Source: Flavobacteriaceae bacterium
GTDB taxonomy: Bacteria; Bacteroidota; Bacteroidia; Flavobacteriales; Flavobacteriaceae
DNA length: 11,060 nucleotides
NCBI GenBank assembly: GCA_002693605.1
Contig: NZQO01000044.1
Span: forward strand, 1-11,060
Direction of reading: 5' to 3'
Below, piece after piece: positions 1,449 through 7,762 of this stretch. The notes beneath the pieces were generated by a model. The model was not told the DNA's origin. It searched no databases and was given only the letters and a program-made list of their open reading frames with translations. Every line of letters begins with the position of its first letter. Positions within the stretch are counted from its first letter, which is position 1. The position numbers were made by a program, and so were the translations under genes.

Positions 1449-3899
1449 TTATAAGCTTATTTGAAGGCCAGCGTAAAAGGTGCGCGGCTGACTGGGTATA
1501 ATGCCAGGACCCGGATATCCAGTGGCCCGGCGCACGAAATAGCTATTGTCCAGCACATTATTGAGTCCGCCCTCTACCCGGAAGCGACCATAAGTATAGC
1601 TCAATGAAAGATCCAAAATATCATACGCGGGAATTTCACCCACAATACCACTTTGGCTCTCAAAATCGCGAAGGCTATTCGTGGCATCGGTAAATTGCCT
1701 GCCCAGATAGGTATACTGTAAGCTGCCCAAAAGATTTTTGTAGCCAAAATGCACCCCCGTTTTGAGGTTAACCGACGGAATGAACTCCACCTCGTTGCCG
1801 GCAACGTTATTCTGTCCTGAAGAAGTATATTCACTATCGGTCACCGCCAGATTCAAGAACGTGGAGAGTTTTACGCGATCGTCTTCAAAAAAAGTGGTCC
1901 AAATGTTCCAGTCCACAAAACCTTCGAAGCCGTATATGGAGGCATCGCCAATATTTCCGCGGAAACGTTCCTCTTGAATATCGCTCAGTTCACGAATTAC
2001 AACTCCCAAACGGTCGCGGTAGCGCAGATAGAATGCCCCGATATCGTACGACACGTAATTTCTGAATCGACCCCGCACCCCAATATCGGCCGTGTAACCT
2101 TCTTCATCTGTAATTTCGGGGTCTATCGTAAGCGACGGGTTGGTTATTCGAATATCGTTGAAGGTGACCGACCGGTAGTTCTGGCTCACGTTCGCATAGA
2201 GTTCGGCCTTTGTACTGGGCTTATAGCTAAGGCCCAGCCCAAGTAAGATAAAGCTACGGTCGAACGTGCGATTATCAGGAATGGTCTCGTTCAAGATGGG
2301 ATTTCCAGCCAAATCGAAACGGATATCCTTGTACGCTCCCTCACTTTCGGTTTTGATATATTCTACCCGAAACCCTGGCGTCACCGAAAACCTATCGGAA
2401 AGTTGAAAAATATGCTCACCGAAAAATGCCAGGTTCACATTAGGAAACTCAAAATCGCTTTGCCTTGGGTAATCGGGAAACGCATCGTTGGCAAACTGAA
2501 AATCGGCATCATTTCCCGTGCTACCAGGGCCTTGTCGTTCGGCATTGTTACTTTGGTAATACTTGGCACCCAAGAGCAGGACGTTCTCGTTTTCCAAAAA
2601 ATCGTAGCGCGTTAACAACCTGGTCTCGGTACCCCAATTCCGAAATTTTCCGGAGATTAGTTCGCGGGGCGAAGTTAAATCGTCTTCCTGCGATACTCTG
2701 TTTTCCCTAAAGCCTACTGATTTTCGCGAAGCATCCAACGCAAAAAGATTGGCACTAAACTGGGTTTTTTCTGAAAATGAATGTTCCAGTAAAAGTGCAT
2801 ACAACTTCCAGTCAACTTCGAACCAGTTTCTACTCCGGTTGCTAAAGGTCGGATCCTCCTCAAACTGCCGGTCTGTCAACCCGCCAGGTTGTTGTGCCAA
2901 ATAGTACAGGTAACTGAACTCGCCCGTTACCTTGGTTTTTTCGTCAAGCTCGTACGCCACATGAGCATAGGCATTATAGCTATTGAAGCCCGAGTTGGGC
3001 CTAAAATCTTCGCCCGTCTTATAGTTAAAATAGGAATAATAGCCAACCTTTCCCACCGTACCGGAGGCACTGTTAAAACTGTTGAAAAGATTGTAGCTTC
3101 CTACCGTTTGGCGCGATACCCACTCGAATTCCTTCTCAGCATTTGGTGCTTTCAGCTTGAAATTTACCAAGCCGCCAAATTGCGTTCCATACTGCAGTGA
3201 TGCGGCCCCTCGCACCACCTCTATTTGCTGCAGCGCTTCGGCGGGCGGCGTGTAGTAGCTTTCTGGATATCCCAGAACATCGGCAGAGATATCATAGCCA
3301 TTTTGGCGCACGTTGAAATTCGCCGATCGATTGGGGTTGAGGCCCCTACCTCCAATGTTTAGCTGAAGGCCCGCGTCGTTATTCTCGTAAATATTAAGAC
3401 CAACCACCTGCGCGTATATCTGTCTCGCATTTCCCGTGGCGAGATTAGCGGTAAGATTGTCAAGCAATACAACTTCGCTCTTCTTACCCGCATAGATAGC
3501 GGTACCCTCTACTGGACGTAGTTGTTTTAAGGCAAATTGGCGCTCCTTACGCTTTGTAAGCACCACTTCGGTGAGGGTTTCACCCAAGGGCTGTAAGCTG
3601 AAATTCTGAACCGTATTCCCGTTAACCGTAACTTGGGTTTCGGCTATTTCAAATTCGAAGGTGAAGACCACAAGGTAATGATCGCCGTTGGATACCGATT
3701 CAAACGAAAAATTTCCAGAGCCATTTGTAACGGTACTTTTCCCCGTACTGGTGAGGTACACCTCGGCCCCGGCAATAGGCTCCCCGGCCAAGGTGGTGAC
3801 CGTACCGCTGAGGCTGGATTGTGCCAACGTTTGACACGCAATTAGCAGTATAAGCGCAAAACTCAAATTCTTCAAAACACTACAATCCTTTAATTTCAT
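1449..3899 (-). CDS. FecA-like TonB-dependent outer-membrane receptor
   Basis: Outer-membrane gated channel that takes up a metal chelate using TonB/proton-motive energy. The 816-residue protein has a signal peptide (about 1-27, cleavage after QTLAQ), a carboxypeptidase-regulatory-like beta-sandwich (about 29-105), a TonB-box-like LTEVVLT (109-115), a plug with GRGLNPNRS (184-192) and VRGAASLQYGTQFGG (229-243), and a beta-barrel to the end, which closes with an aromatic-containing strand (RTFYAGLQISL). The plug motifs resemble the ferric-dicitrate receptor group. It is the last gene of the DUF4856/imelysin/carboxylase-like operon and its ATG overlaps the preceding gene by 20 nt. A TTG at codon 9 (position 3875) would remove the overlap and give a more standard signal peptide (MKNLSFALILL), so the true start is uncertain. 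The substrate is inferred from neighbours as iron, not shown directly. Confidence 0.93.
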   Translation of the reverse strand: MKLKDCSVLKNLSFALILLIACQTLAQSSLSGTVTTLAGEPIAGAEVYLTSTGKSTVTNGSGNFSFESVSNGDHYLVVFTFEFEIAETQVTVNGNTVQNFSLQPLGETLTEVVLTKRKERQFALKQLRPVEGTAIYAGKKSEVVLLDNLTANLATGNARQIYAQVVGLNIYENNDAGLQLNIGGRGLNPNRSANFNVRQNGYDISADVLGYPESYYTPPAEALQQIEVVRGAASLQYGTQFGGLVNFKLKAPNAEKEFEWVSRQTVGSYNLFNSFNSASGTVGKVGYYSYFNYKTGEDFRPNSGFNSYNAYAHVAYELDEKTKVTGEFSYLYYLAQQPGGLTDRQFEEDPTFSNRSRNWFEVDWKLYALLLEHSFSEKTQFSANLFALDASRKSVGFRENRVSQEDDLTSPRELISGKFRNWGTETRLLTRYDFLENENVLLLGAKYYQSNNAERQGPGSTGNDADFQFANDAFPDYPRQSDFEFPNVNLAFFGEHIFQLSDRFSVTPGFRVEYIKTESEGAYKDIRFDLAGNPILNETIPDNRTFDRSFILLGLGLSYKPSTKAELYANVSQNYRSVTFNDIRITNPSLTIDPEITDEEGYTADIGVRGRFRNYVSYDIGAFYLRYRDRLGVVIRELSDIQEERFRGNIGDASIYGFEGFVDWNIWTTFFEDDRVKLSTFLNLAVTDSEYTSSGQNNVAGNEVEFIPSVNLKTGVHFGYKNLLGSLQYTYLGRQFTDATNSLRDFESQSGIVGEIPAYDILDLSLSYTYGRFRVEGGLNNVLDNSYFVRRATGYPGPGIIPSQPRTFYAGLQISL

Positions 3900-5244
3900 C
3901 TTGAAAGGGTACTATCCAGGTTTTATGCGCGAACGATTCGCGCTGATTCAATAAATTGACTGTCGGGTATACAAAGGGTTGGCTCATTCGACCATTTAGG
4001 GCCACATAACTTTCTACATATATCTCGAGGGGGCCGTGTCCCTGAGCCTTAAACTGGTCGCCCAAGAAATGTGCATACTCAAGAATAAAATCCGGCTGGA
4101 AGCTCATTTGTTTTTCCTGAAAGGGCGTCAGGAAATCACTGTTATCAACGTAAAAATAATTTCCCGTGGCAGGGTTTACTACCTTAAACTGTGCGTAGCC
4201 AGCCTTTTCCATTAGCATGACGCGCCAAGAAAACCGAAATCCCTCCTCGGTCCAGAAAAGTTCACCCGGATACAAGACATAGCGCCAGGGCAATAAAAAC
4301 TGGATTCCGATAAATAGGGCCACTACCCATTTTACCATCGATGTGGTTTTTTCTTTTTTCTTCGGAAGCAATACGGCATCCCATTTCTCCTTTCCAATTC
4401 GAAAAACGCCCGATAAAAAAAGCAAGATGCGATGATGGAATTTCGCATCGAAGAAGATCAAGGTGCTCACGATCATCACAAAGGGAAAAATACCGATGGG
4501 GAACAGCACGCGCGTAAGCACGTGGAAAATAACCACCATGGCGAAGGCGAACCAGCGGGTTTTTCGGTATAGCAGTAAAAAGGGAATACTCAAATCGTAC
4601 AGTGCGCCACTCCAGCTAAAGGCAAAGTGCGCCCATTCCTCTTGTAGGATCGTTCCCAACAAAGGAAGGTCATAATTGGAGGGGAGCCATATTTTAAGGG
4701 GCATAGCGCGAAAAAGCCAGTCGCTATTCAATTTTGCCAATCCGGCATAGAAGTAGACTATTCCCAGAAGTACTTTAATGCTATCTATGGTCCAGGAGGG
4801 AATATAGTACGCGGCCAATTTCTTATTCCGCCAAGCATCTACCGAAAAGTAACGGTGGGCCGGCAAAAAAAGCATCAAAAAGCTTACGCAGCTTATAAAG
4901 TAATAATGGTTAAGGTAGGTGGTCTTATCCATCAATTCGATATAGGTAAAGCTCAGAAAAAAGGTGAGTATGGATAGGCGATACTTAAAGCCCAGGGCCA
5001 CACCCAATGCACTGAGACCGCATACCAAGAAAATTACGTAGGTAAAAGCGCCCAGCGGCCTTACCCATTCGAAACCGTAATATGAAAAGTGAAAAGTGGG
5101 CTCAAGGTATAATTTTTCAATCCAGCCATTGGCCCAAAAACGGAGCAAGCTCCCTACCATCATAAGGCCAAAGAAAATACGAAAGACCGCCAACGGGGCG
5201 GCCTCTGTAGGCTTATCAAGGTATTTTGCGAGCGGGCTACCCAT
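3880..5244 (-). CDS. HTTM / vitamin K-dependent gamma-carboxylase-like membrane protein
   Basis: Polytopic inner-membrane protein of 454 residues with several hydrophobic segments between about 17 and 265, another at about 303-320, and a hydrophilic C-terminal domain (about 325-454). Family features visible in order: YLNHYYF (110-116), YFYAGLAKLNSDW (164-176), FHVLTRVLFPIGIFPFVM (240-257) and GFRFSWRVMLMEK (335-347). Asn112-His113 and Lys171 line up with Asn159-His160 and catalytic-base Lys218 of human gamma-glutamyl carboxylase; the His-to-Lys spacing is 58 in both (human numbering recalled from literature). Known members convert Glu to gamma-carboxyglutamate using a reduced naphthoquinone, O2 and CO2 on the exported side of the membrane; bacterial homologues mostly lack a proven function. 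The ATG overlaps the imelysin stop (TAATG), indicating translational coupling. Family assignment is strong; carboxylase activity is inference. Confidence 0.9.
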   Translation of the reverse strand: MGSPLAKYLDKPTEAAPLAVFRIFFGLMMVGSLLRFWANGWIEKLYLEPTFHFSYYGFEWVRPLGAFTYVIFLVCGLSALGVALGFKYRLSILTFFLSFTYIELMDKTTYLNHYYFISCVSFLMLFLPAHRYFSVDAWRNKKLAAYYIPSWTIDSIKVLLGIVYFYAGLAKLNSDWLFRAMPLKIWLPSNYDLPLLGTILQEEWAHFAFSWSGALYDLSIPFLLLYRKTRWFAFAMVVIFHVLTRVLFPIGIFPFVMIVSTLIFFDAKFHHRILLFLSGVFRIGKEKWDAVLLPKKKEKTTSMVKWVVALFIGIQFLLPWRYVLYPGELFWTEEGFRFSWRVMLMEKAGYAQFKVVNPATGNYFYVDNSDFLTPFQEKQMSFQPDFILEYAHFLGDQFKAQGHGPLEIYVESYVALNGRMSQPFVYPTVNLLNQRESFAHKTWIVPFQDEIKGL

Positions 5245-6362
5245 TAGTCTCCGTCGGCATCGATATAATCGACATTTACATCCAACGCTTGTAGCATATC
5301 TACCTTCAACAGGATAACGTTACGCTGCAGTTCGTCAAAGGCATTCAGCATTTTAGAATTATCTATTTCAATTTGCGCCACGAAGTTTTCATCCAACAGA
5401 TTCAACGCCGCACGAGCATCCTCAAACTGGGCATTGATCAATAGGGCGAGATCCTCACCATTTTTTATGGTGTTCAGGTAATCAAGATAGCTTTTGAAAC
5501 TTTTCCCGGTCTGGTTTCCTGCAAAATGTTTTCCGTTGAAAAAATCTTGCGCGGCCTGTAGCGACGTCAATGCTAATTGCCTTGAAAAGTCCTTCTTATA
5601 AAAAGCTTCTACATTTCCGGGCAAGGGCAAATTGGAAAACACGCCAGCGGGGATTCCTATCTTTCCGGCACGTAGCGCCTTTTCATAATAAAAAACATAG
5701 TCATTCGCCAGTTTATCAACCGAGGCGGAGGCCGAACCGCCAGAATTACTAACAAAGGTATCGCGATACCCAGTATTCCAATTGGCCACGACACTAGCTG
5801 TGAGCGAGTTGGCAATTTGCGCCAAGTTTACCAGGTAATTCGTATAGTTAGTGGCACTTGCGTTGGTGCTATAGAATGCCACGATTTCTGAATCGGTTTC
5901 CCCCAATCCGTAAAGCAAATAATCCATTGCCGGAAATCCTTGCGCATCCATCGTTGAAGGAAGCGAAAGATCATAGGTTCCGCTAGCGATAAAATCTTCT
6001 ATCTCGGTTGTATTGGCAGGATAGGTGTTCAATCGATTCCGGAAAAAGACCGTTTCGGCGGGGCCGATATCGAACATAGAAACTTGCTGAAACGCGATAT
6101 AGGCAGTTTGCCATGCCGAGCGCGCTTCCTGAAGGGTAGCCTCAGATGGGTTTTGAGTAAAACTTGCCACCGCAGATTCTAGAGCCTGGGTCGTCCCACC
6201 AAAATTTAAGTACGCCGGAATTATAATATTATCGGCCCAATTTACCAGCATGGCACTGCGATCGAACGAATCGCCCGAACTCGCGGGACCACCGCTATCG
6301 TCTTCCGAACACGCCCAAAGCGCCAAACATAAAATTCCAAAAAAGAATGATTTCTTTAACAT
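5244..6362 (-). CDS. Imelysin-like (peptidase M75 family) surface lipoprotein
   Basis: Lipoprotein of 372 residues related to imelysin, IrpA and EfeO, proteins tied to bacterial iron uptake; proteolysis is not generally established for the family. The lipobox LALWAC places the lipidated residue at Cys18, followed by SEDD, which fits the Bacteroidota lipoprotein-export signal for surface display. The all-helical imelysin domain spans about 35-372. Recognisable parts are the N-terminal repeat (ARSAWQTAYIAFQQ, GPAE), GFPAMDYLLYG (142-152), AGKIGIPAG (232-240) and the characteristic end NVDYIDADGD. The usual GxHxxE metal motif is altered: GFPAMD has Pro for His and Asp for Glu. The gene has a TAnnTTTG box close upstream and its stop overlaps the next start. 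Together with the receptor it suggests surface capture of iron. Confidence 0.92.
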   Translation of the reverse strand: MLKKSFFFGILCLALWACSEDDSGGPASSGDSFDRSAMLVNWADNIIIPAYLNFGGTTQALESAVASFTQNPSEATLQEARSAWQTAYIAFQQVSMFDIGPAETVFFRNRLNTYPANTTEIEDFIASGTYDLSLPSTMDAQGFPAMDYLLYGLGETDSEIVAFYSTNASATNYTNYLVNLAQIANSLTASVVANWNTGYRDTFVSNSGGSASASVDKLANDYVFYYEKALRAGKIGIPAGVFSNLPLPGNVEAFYKKDFSRQLALTSLQAAQDFFNGKHFAGNQTGKSFKSYLDYLNTIKNGEDLALLINAQFEDARAALNLLDENFVAQIEIDNSKMLNAFDELQRNVILLKVDMLQALDVNVDYIDADGD

Positions 6363-6442: not shown

Positions 6443-7666
6443 TTAATTGGCGGCCATTTGAACGGTGAAGTCGAACTTCGCCGCAATGGCTTCGGAAATT
6501 CTATCTAACGTTTCGGGGGTTACATTCCAAAGTCCATTCGAACCATCCGAAAGCAGTTCGGAAAGGAAACTGTCTACCTCACCTTTACTGAAATAAGGCA
6601 TATCATCTGCCGTGTTACGCGTAAAGCGAAGGCTATAGACAAACCCGTATCCTTCCGATAGGTCGTGGAATGCCGCACCAAAATCGCCGTCCTGGATTCC
6701 CACCTTACCGGCCTGCAAATAGTATACCGCACGAATGGCAATTACTTCGGAAACCAGTTGGCGAATCAAATCGGCCTGTTGGTCGCGCACCTCGTAATTC
6801 TTGGCTACGATGGCCGCCCTACCTAATTTAAAGGCATCGAATATCTCTTGCGCAATACCTTCAAAATCAAGATCGGAATTCACCTTTCCTACGTACTTGT
6901 TCAAAAAGCCGTCCGCCTCGCCAATGGCGGGAACCGGATTGGCCGTGTTTTGCGCGGCACCAAAAAGGTAGCCATATGCCTCGTCCCACTTATGTTCCAT
7001 TGTGGTGTAGGGCTTATCGGCCACGGTGATTTCGTTATCGTTATCAGTCCGGTTATTTGCTTCATCCAAAACAGAGGTGCTCAAATAGTTGTTCAACATT
7101 TGGTCGGCCATTAGGGCCCCAATAAGCCCCTTGGCGAAAATTTGATTCATCTCCAACCCATTGGCAGCGACGTAACGCGGAGAGGAACCGTCGGCAATCT
7201 GGCCCGAAACCCCGGGGGCCGCGGCGACATTGCGATTGGGCACTACCTCGGCAAAATGGTTATCGATGTACCCGTCGAATGTGTTTTTTATAGTGGCCGC
7301 CTCGGTTGCGTTGCTTCCGAAGTAGTCTTTAGAGGCCGCAGTTTTACTGCGAACATTTTTTCCAGAAGCATTTAAACGCGAATCGCTAAAGTTATTCTCA
7401 CCCTCTTGGTGGGCGAACATCGCCTTAACGGAAGCTTCGGTAGAAGCATCGAAATCATTGAACGCGCCGGCAATTTCACCCGCCATTAGTATGCGAGTGG
7501 TTTGGCCCTCGAACGATACGGTAGACTGCCCGTCACGTTCAAAAACGTAGGTTGCCGGTGCCTCGACAGAAGAGTTATCAATAGAGCTTCCCTCGTCATC
7601 GTTGGCACAAGAGAATAAGGCAAAACTTGCTAGGAGAGCGGTGAAAAGATAGTTTTTCATCATCAT
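6443..7666 (-). CDS. DUF4856-family lipoprotein, first gene of iron-type operon
   Basis: Lipoprotein of 407 residues with no assigned biochemical role. The lipobox (SFALFSC, Cys20) is followed by ANDDE, which resembles the Bacteroidota surface-export signal. The family is recognised by APATYVFERDGQSTVSFEGQ near the N-terminus, TMEHKWDEAYGYLFGA (222-237) and AGKVGIQDGDFGAAFHDLSEGYGF (319-342). His225, Asp228, Glu229, His334 and Glu338 in these blocks are candidate metal ligands. The AGKVGIQDG segment resembles AGKIGIPAG of the neighbouring imelysin-like protein, suggesting a related helical fold. Three successive ATGs (7666, 7663, 7660) are possible starts; all give the same lipobox. Transcription is probably from the promoter at 7707-7737, flanked by twin palindromes. 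It co-occurs with imelysin and TonB receptor genes here, so a role in surface metal acquisition is a reasonable inference. Confidence 0.85.
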   Translation of the reverse strand: MMMKNYLFTALLASFALFSCANDDEGSSIDNSSVEAPATYVFERDGQSTVSFEGQTTRILMAGEIAGAFNDFDASTEASVKAMFAHQEGENNFSDSRLNASGKNVRSKTAASKDYFGSNATEAATIKNTFDGYIDNHFAEVVPNRNVAAAPGVSGQIADGSSPRYVAANGLEMNQIFAKGLIGALMADQMLNNYLSTSVLDEANNRTDNDNEITVADKPYTTMEHKWDEAYGYLFGAAQNTANPVPAIGEADGFLNKYVGKVNSDLDFEGIAQEIFDAFKLGRAAIVAKNYEVRDQQADLIRQLVSEVIAIRAVYYLQAGKVGIQDGDFGAAFHDLSEGYGFVYSLRFTRNTADDMPYFSKGEVDSFLSELLSDGSNGLWNVTPETLDRISEAIAAKFDFTVQMAAN

Positions 7667-7667
7667 T

Positions 7668-7690
7668 TTATTTAGACTTAATATAAATAA
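7668..7690. promoter_or_regulatory. Operator candidate, leader copy
   Basis: A 23-bp palindrome TTATTTA-N9-TAAATAA. Pairing about the central base holds at 9 of 11 positions. It lies in the expected 5' leader of the DUF4856 mRNA, roughly +13 to +35, ending 2 bp before the first possible ATG. It matches the copy at 7740-7762 in both arms and in the first two spacer bases (GA). A protein bound here would act as a roadblock or promoter blocker. Confidence 0.55.
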
Positions 7691-7739: not shown

Positions 7740-7762
7740 TTATTTAGATTAAATTTAAATAA
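7740..7762. promoter_or_regulatory. Operator candidate, upstream copy
   Basis: A 23-bp palindrome TTATTTA-N9-TAAATAA in which 10 of 11 base pairs are symmetrical around the central A at 7751; the only mismatch is G7747 against T7755. It ends 2 bp from the -33 box of the operon promoter and 22 bp after the stop codon of the haem-binding gene. The centre-to-centre distance to the leader copy is 72 bp. Dimer-binding metalloregulators of the Fur or DtxR type are plausible given the operon, but the sequence alone does not name one. Confidence 0.6.

Follow-up and report, generated by a model that had tools for sequence, protein, structure and literature searches.

We report that a bacterial homologue of GGCX, encoded on the minus strand of an 11,060-base stretch of Flavobacteriaceae DNA (contig NZQO01000044.1), is tied to an IPPA-type imelysin by gene order, by co-occurrence and by one case of joint decay. 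GGCX is the human vitamin K enzyme that activates clotting factors, and vitamin K-dependent carboxylation is known from animals. The window, by which we mean this whole stretch, is one entire contig from a 68%-complete genome; the protein of 454 residues specified at 3880..5244 is, judged by its sequence, truly a homologue of GGCX that keeps the catalytic residues and most of the quinone pocket. Its operon is of a type that is iron-responsive in Riemerella, where Fur is not the sole control. Its intact active site and its place beside the imelysin in this operon point to a protein modification that has so far gone unrecognised in the capture of metals by bacteria. We propose that the protein is a functional enzyme that uses menaquinol and the mechanism of GGCX, that it is induced at low iron, and that it acts on or with the IPPA-type imelysin of a Fur-type metal-uptake operon. 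As a whole, we consider this explanation about evenly balanced between right and wrong.

An intact GGCX-type active site

What identifies the window protein as a GGCX homologue? An HTTM membrane domain (residues 11-267; PF05090, 1e-83, scoring 281 bits where 27.7 is the cut-off) is followed by a VKGC lumenal domain (residues 302-450; PF22777, 6.2e-58), and the predicted model has the GGCX fold across both. The alignment with human GGCX that the preliminary description called for gives a similarity far above chance (phmmer, E 2.5e-39, residues 6-447). In this sequence alignment, from which the correspondence of residues is taken in place of a coordinate overlay, N112-H113 (codons at 4906..4911, minus strand, re-read) match human N159-H160 of the Glu pocket, and K171 (codon at 4732..4734, minus strand, likewise re-read) matches the catalytic base K218. 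The spacing between His and Lys is 58 in both proteins, as first described. The N-H-K residues are invariant in 111/111 operon-type relatives, an alignment that omitted the genes of loci L044 and L037 and the fragment L193, and they are kept in 27/27 further rows, where one gene was entered twice and one was already among the 111. The vitamin K pocket residues V210, A214, W223, G259, F286, F294 and F299 (human numbering) are all retained, F286 and H287 aligning with F240-H241 (codons at 4522..4527, minus strand); two pocket positions are changed, N290 to Thr and M401 to Val. The FSWR block that had been offered as a further likeness (F338-S339-W340-R341, codons at 4222..4233, minus strand) stands only in part: human GGCX reads Y397-S398-W399-D400, so that S-W is common to both and R341 is a bacterial feature.

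The same residues are found well beyond the operon. Among non-operon GGCX homologues the N-H pair is kept in 21/22 and the Lys in 22/22, the sole loser being L044, and N-H-K is present in 20/20 other homologues of one set and in the 8/8 added later. The motif thus marks a GGCX-type enzyme, and it is the operon that hints at a purpose. A tree of 122 sequences, with human GGCX as its root, places the operon members in a single group (103 tips, support 0.93) that also takes in the displaced genes L044 and L180; after eight sequences were added, the operon-type group kept the same membership with a support of 0.68.

The operon and the tightest partner

Three core genes accompany the GGCX homologue on the minus strand, as the preliminary description had it: a DUF4856 lipoprotein (6443..7666), core operon gene 1; an imelysin lipoprotein of the IPPA/PA4372 type (PF09375; 5244..6362); and a TonB-dependent receptor (1449..3899), the final core gene. 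The order DUF4856, imelysin, GGCX homologue, receptor holds in 77/80 named loci, which are the best 80 of at least 586. The three exceptions are L114, on a 6-kb contig, L111, whose DUF4856 falls below the threshold used, and L121. Marine flavobacteria that carry the operon include Zobellia uliginosa (L103) and Christiangramia portivictoriae (L057). Among 247 sampled Bacteroidota genomes the lumenal domain occurs in 56 and DUF4856 in 38, and in 35 of these 38 DUF4856 lies upstream of the GGCX homologue at no more than 6 kb. Profile searches place the imelysin and the receptor next to the GGCX homologue even where DUF4856 is too diverged for Pfam.

Which of these proteins is the partner of the enzyme? 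The preliminary description had proposed the imelysin, the DUF4856 protein and the receptor alike; we find that the imelysin tracks the GGCX homologue best. In 392 Bacteroidota genomes, counted without regard to shared ancestry and mostly from five imelysin candidates per genome, an IPPA-type imelysin was called in 72, every one of which carries the lumenal domain of GGCX; this domain is present in 0/17 genomes with only other imelysin matches. The IPPA-type call denotes a match reaching the last model position, C-termini being read only in fetched genes. Of the 76 IPPA-type rows, 72 lie directly upstream of the GGCX homologue on the same strand; the remaining four (genomes G224, G146, G319 and G001) sit in clusters that include a different imelysin, and all four genomes carry an operon-type GGCX gene elsewhere. 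Twelve genomes have the lumenal domain and no IPPA-type imelysin, and in each of these the one place examined holds a gene of the other type (L189, L192, L193, L195, L314-L321).

Two genomes illustrate how the active site fares when partners are missing. In G146, which has neither an operon receptor nor a DUF4856 match, the GGCX homologue nevertheless departs at 0/53 near-invariant positions. In G014 (locus L044), which has neither a matching imelysin nor an operon receptor, it departs at 20/53, and the losses include N112S, H113S, F240S and H241Q; the maximum is four departures among 139 operon rows, each compared with the rest. The L044 gene is flanked by an outer-membrane beta-barrel gene and an IMP dehydrogenase gene. 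Imelysin and GGCX homologue are also adjacent in L298 and L305, within clusters of different make-up: the sole receptor-like gene of L298 is a distant one (77 bits), and in the 13-kb stretch of L305, where N-H-K is intact, profiles found neither receptor nor DUF4856. In G146 and L305, then, the GGCX homologue is intact although DUF4856 and the operon receptor were not found.

The window imelysin has the imelysin fold and lacks the His of the GxHxxE motif (G142-F-P-A-M-D147); across 111 rows there is no conserved His. The "canonical imelysin" profile, which was chosen by open reading frame length and mixes imelysins with other cluster genes, served merely to locate clusters.

The invariant DGD end of the imelysin

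The window imelysin ends in D370-G371-D372-COOH (last 12 residues at 5247..5282, minus strand). Of the distinct imelysins whose gene immediately precedes a GGCX homologue, 135 in number, all but one have DGD as their exact C-terminus and the exception has DGDS; the three D-G-D columns are the only fully invariant imelysin columns. These 135 were unselected; a separate imelysin alignment was built from DGD-ending members, and its tail is invariant by construction. The imelysin model is confident to residue 360, the mean predicted local distance difference test score being 80 for residues 361-370 and 51 for 371-372, and the tail has no predicted secondary structure. Similarly, the last six residues (384-389) are described as disordered in the IPPA crystal, in the part of that report available (PMC3143127). 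All four Gly codons are used in the DGD tail (37, 32, 29 and 13 of 111), and the distance from the tail to the GGCX start ranges from -17 to 242 bases. Because codon choice and gene spacing both vary, the constraint acts on the protein, and an origin of the DGD codons as a ribosome-binding site was rejected.

A DGD end is found in 0/16 imelysins of other families unlinked to a GGCX homologue. It is found, however, in eight second IPPA-type imelysins that do not adjoin a GGCX homologue, in the Psychrobacter IPPA (3pf0), and in 8/8 proteobacterial relatives fetched out of 33 matching plasmid records (L302, L304, L308-L313). GGCX matches were listed for four plasmid records, none of them from the eight DGD relatives, whose strains' other replicons were not searched. 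With DGD on the Psychrobacter protein and, without a GGCX homologue nearby, on all eight proteobacterial relatives, we rejected the tail as a GGCX-specific tag; its occurrence in proteobacterial IPPA relatives makes it an old hallmark of the IPPA family. The GGCX homologue may still act on the DGD tail in Bacteroidota. In one speculative and improbable version, it would carboxylate the invariant DGD-COOH end there, converting Asp to beta-carboxyaspartate, a malonate, and so creating an encoded peptide chelator for a ferric or other hard metal ion to be passed to the TonB receptor, with the unmodified tail serving alongside DUF1513 in Proteobacteria. Literature matches for beta-carboxyaspartate concern, by title, prebiotic chemistry.

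Iron control

Two Fur-box-like palindromes (7670..7688, plus strand; 7742..7760, minus strand) lie in the gap before DUF4856, each with three mismatches to the consensus predicted for Riemerella anatipestifer; a mean of 0.01 is expected in the window. When the best site in the 160 bases preceding DUF4856 was taken for each of 78 named loci, 53 showed three mismatches or fewer, as against 2/780 block-shuffled controls and 0/78 coding stretches. The operon promoter carries putative Fur boxes. Iron responsiveness has been recorded for a matching set of genes in R. anatipestifer: in Table 4 of PMC5609570, the part of that report on which we rely, the wild-type ratios of expression without and with iron are 2.11 for the receptor, 2.64 for a "vitamin K-dependent gamma-carboxylase", 3.07 for the imelysin and 2.41 for a hypothetical protein. 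In the fur mutant the ratio is 2.70-3.07 for the four genes, and mutant over wild type with iron is only 1.36-1.93 (same table).

Proposed reaction and alternative explanations

We propose the following course of events. The enzyme would be a protein of the cytoplasmic membrane whose lumenal domain faces the exported side, and it would be induced at low iron. Flavobacteria use menaquinone, and K171 would deprotonate menaquinol, which oxygen would convert into a strong base. N112/H113 would hold an acidic side chain, and the base would take a proton from one of its carbons; CO2 would then add, and the added carboxylate would be a metal ligand on an exported partner, for which the imelysin is the likeliest candidate. 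We think the operon best read in terms of a reaction that modifies such a partner, and Glu carboxylation as such is plausible.

Several observations weigh against this proposal. Human K217, N158, R436 and M401 are Ala, Leu, Gln and Val in the bacterial protein; the K217 position is Ala in 111/111 operon-type relatives, in which N158 is Leu and R436 mostly Gln. In GGCX, N158, R436 and K217 serve in holding the Gla-domain backbone or in coupling substrate binding. The position of human Y395 is Phe in the window protein and Tyr in most relatives. Human GGCX further has the rest of PBD-2 and an Arch domain, both missing from the window protein, whose alignment stops near human residue 508; without K217, a complete PBD-2 and an Arch domain, it does not fit the vertebrate type of propeptide-guided carboxylase. 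VKOR, which recycles vitamin K epoxide in animals, shows no association across 246 genomes (9/47 operon genomes against 49/199 others), was not found in the window's own incomplete genome, and was rejected as a partner for want of co-occurrence. No imelysin Glu was found that is invariant only where a GGCX homologue is present, and a Glu of this kind was likewise rejected. Because imelysin and receptor are both missing from G014, the erosion there cannot be tied to the imelysin in particular, and the 12-kb contig of L121 has DUF4856 and GGCX homologue but neither imelysin nor receptor. In Riemerella the fur mutant still shows the rise at low iron, so that Fur is not the sole control there. Finally, the co-occurrence counts take no account of shared ancestry.

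How else might the operon be explained? The changes on the Gla-domain side, set against the better preserved quinol half of the site, would suit an active quinol-oxygen enzyme that does not carboxylate, in which quinol epoxidation or oxidation is coupled to other chemistry such as iron redox handling or a different side-chain change. The Leptospira homologue is said to have altered activity, and the di-heme oxidoreductases in proteobacterial clusters with the same imelysin type make redox chemistry a fitting theme. However, N159/H160, the pair that holds the Glu side chain in the human enzyme, are invariant in the counted operon members, and we regard this alternative as possible but rather unlikely. 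Alternatively, the enzyme might carboxylate a protein other than the imelysin, with DUF4856 or the TonB receptor as its substrate. The frequent position of DUF4856 upstream of the GGCX homologue and its pairing with that gene alone in L121 fit this idea, as do D252 and D267 of DUF4856, whose conservation is 92% and 90% and neither of which occurs in any of the three GGCX-free members. These three proteins are distant, though, so that their lost residues are weak evidence, and the GGCX homologue is intact where both proposed substrates were not found, in G146 and in the stretch of L305; we think this version unlikely. Lastly, the protein might merely retain the GGCX fold and, without catalysing anything, help lipoproteins to mature or to be exported as a scaffold or chaperone in the membrane, a role that would accord with the varied settings of bacterial GGCX homologues, one type of which lies between RibF and SerS genes. 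The catalytic and pocket residues are nevertheless among the least variable and are eroded in the one genome found without the partners, which makes a scaffold very improbable.

Relation to known systems

The neighbours of the window enzyme are iron-type lipoproteins, unlike the Gla proteins of human GGCX. A close likeness is the R. anatipestifer set RAYM_09779-RAYM_09794, iron-responsive and comprising, in tag order, receptor, "vitamin K-dependent gamma-carboxylase", imelysin and hypothetical protein; in the portion of PMC5609570 available, the carboxylase figures as a table row only and RAYM_09794 is a hypothetical protein by annotation. In Proteobacteria the same imelysin type with its DGD end occurs in ICMP, di-heme oxidoreductase, IPPA imelysin, DUF1513 clusters of the PA4370-PA4373 type, which according to the available part of PMC3143127 are Fur-regulated in P. 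aeruginosa; where loci lack annotation, the di-heme oxidoreductase was guessed from position and length. DUF1513 follows the imelysin in L309-L312, with no GGCX homologue annotated. In the Bacteroidota loci L298 and L305 the GGCX homologue lies directly downstream of the IPPA-type imelysin, the slot that DUF1513 holds in Proteobacteria. Leptospira also carries a gene for a GGCX homologue, as stated in the available part of PMC4555120.

The literature searched, in which subscription journals were thinly covered, held no account of the operon as a carboxylase system, and "gamma-carboxylase" and "imelysin" occurred together in PMC5609570. What emerges here is a bacterial GGCX branch with a conserved neighbourhood, a likely low-iron trigger, a prime partner in the IPPA-type imelysin, and a natural partner-free genome with a decayed active site. 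If our proposal is true, bacterial metal uptake would include a post-translational step that makes metal ligands.

Further observations on the genes

In DUF4856, the conserved residues E224-H225, D228-E229, H334 and E338 resemble a metal site. Comparison of DUF4856 with the imelysin by hhalign gave 88% over a short stretch of only 53 columns.

A second Flavobacteriaceae type of GGCX homologue lies between the genes for FAD synthetase/riboflavin kinase (RibF) and seryl-tRNA synthetase (SerS) in L032-L036, L042, L043, L046, L047 and L049; flanking families were scanned in L042 only, and the RibF and SerS neighbours gave no substrate clue. The neighbours of the remaining unlinked GGCX genes vary. 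An alphaproteobacterial homologue with N-H-K intact is carried on a Paracoccus albus plasmid (L301), near DUF393 and AraC-family genes and without an annotated imelysin.

The minus-strand genes of the window are, in the order of transcription, a LysE-type fragment, HMGL-like, 5'-nucleotidase-like and haem-binding-domain genes, the four core genes, and IMP dehydrogenase. Base 5244 belongs both to the stop of the imelysin gene and to the start of the GGCX gene, which in turn overlaps the receptor gene by 20 bases. The haem-binding-domain protein (PF14376; 7785..8261, minus strand) is an optional neighbour, found on the same strand in 28/80 named loci.

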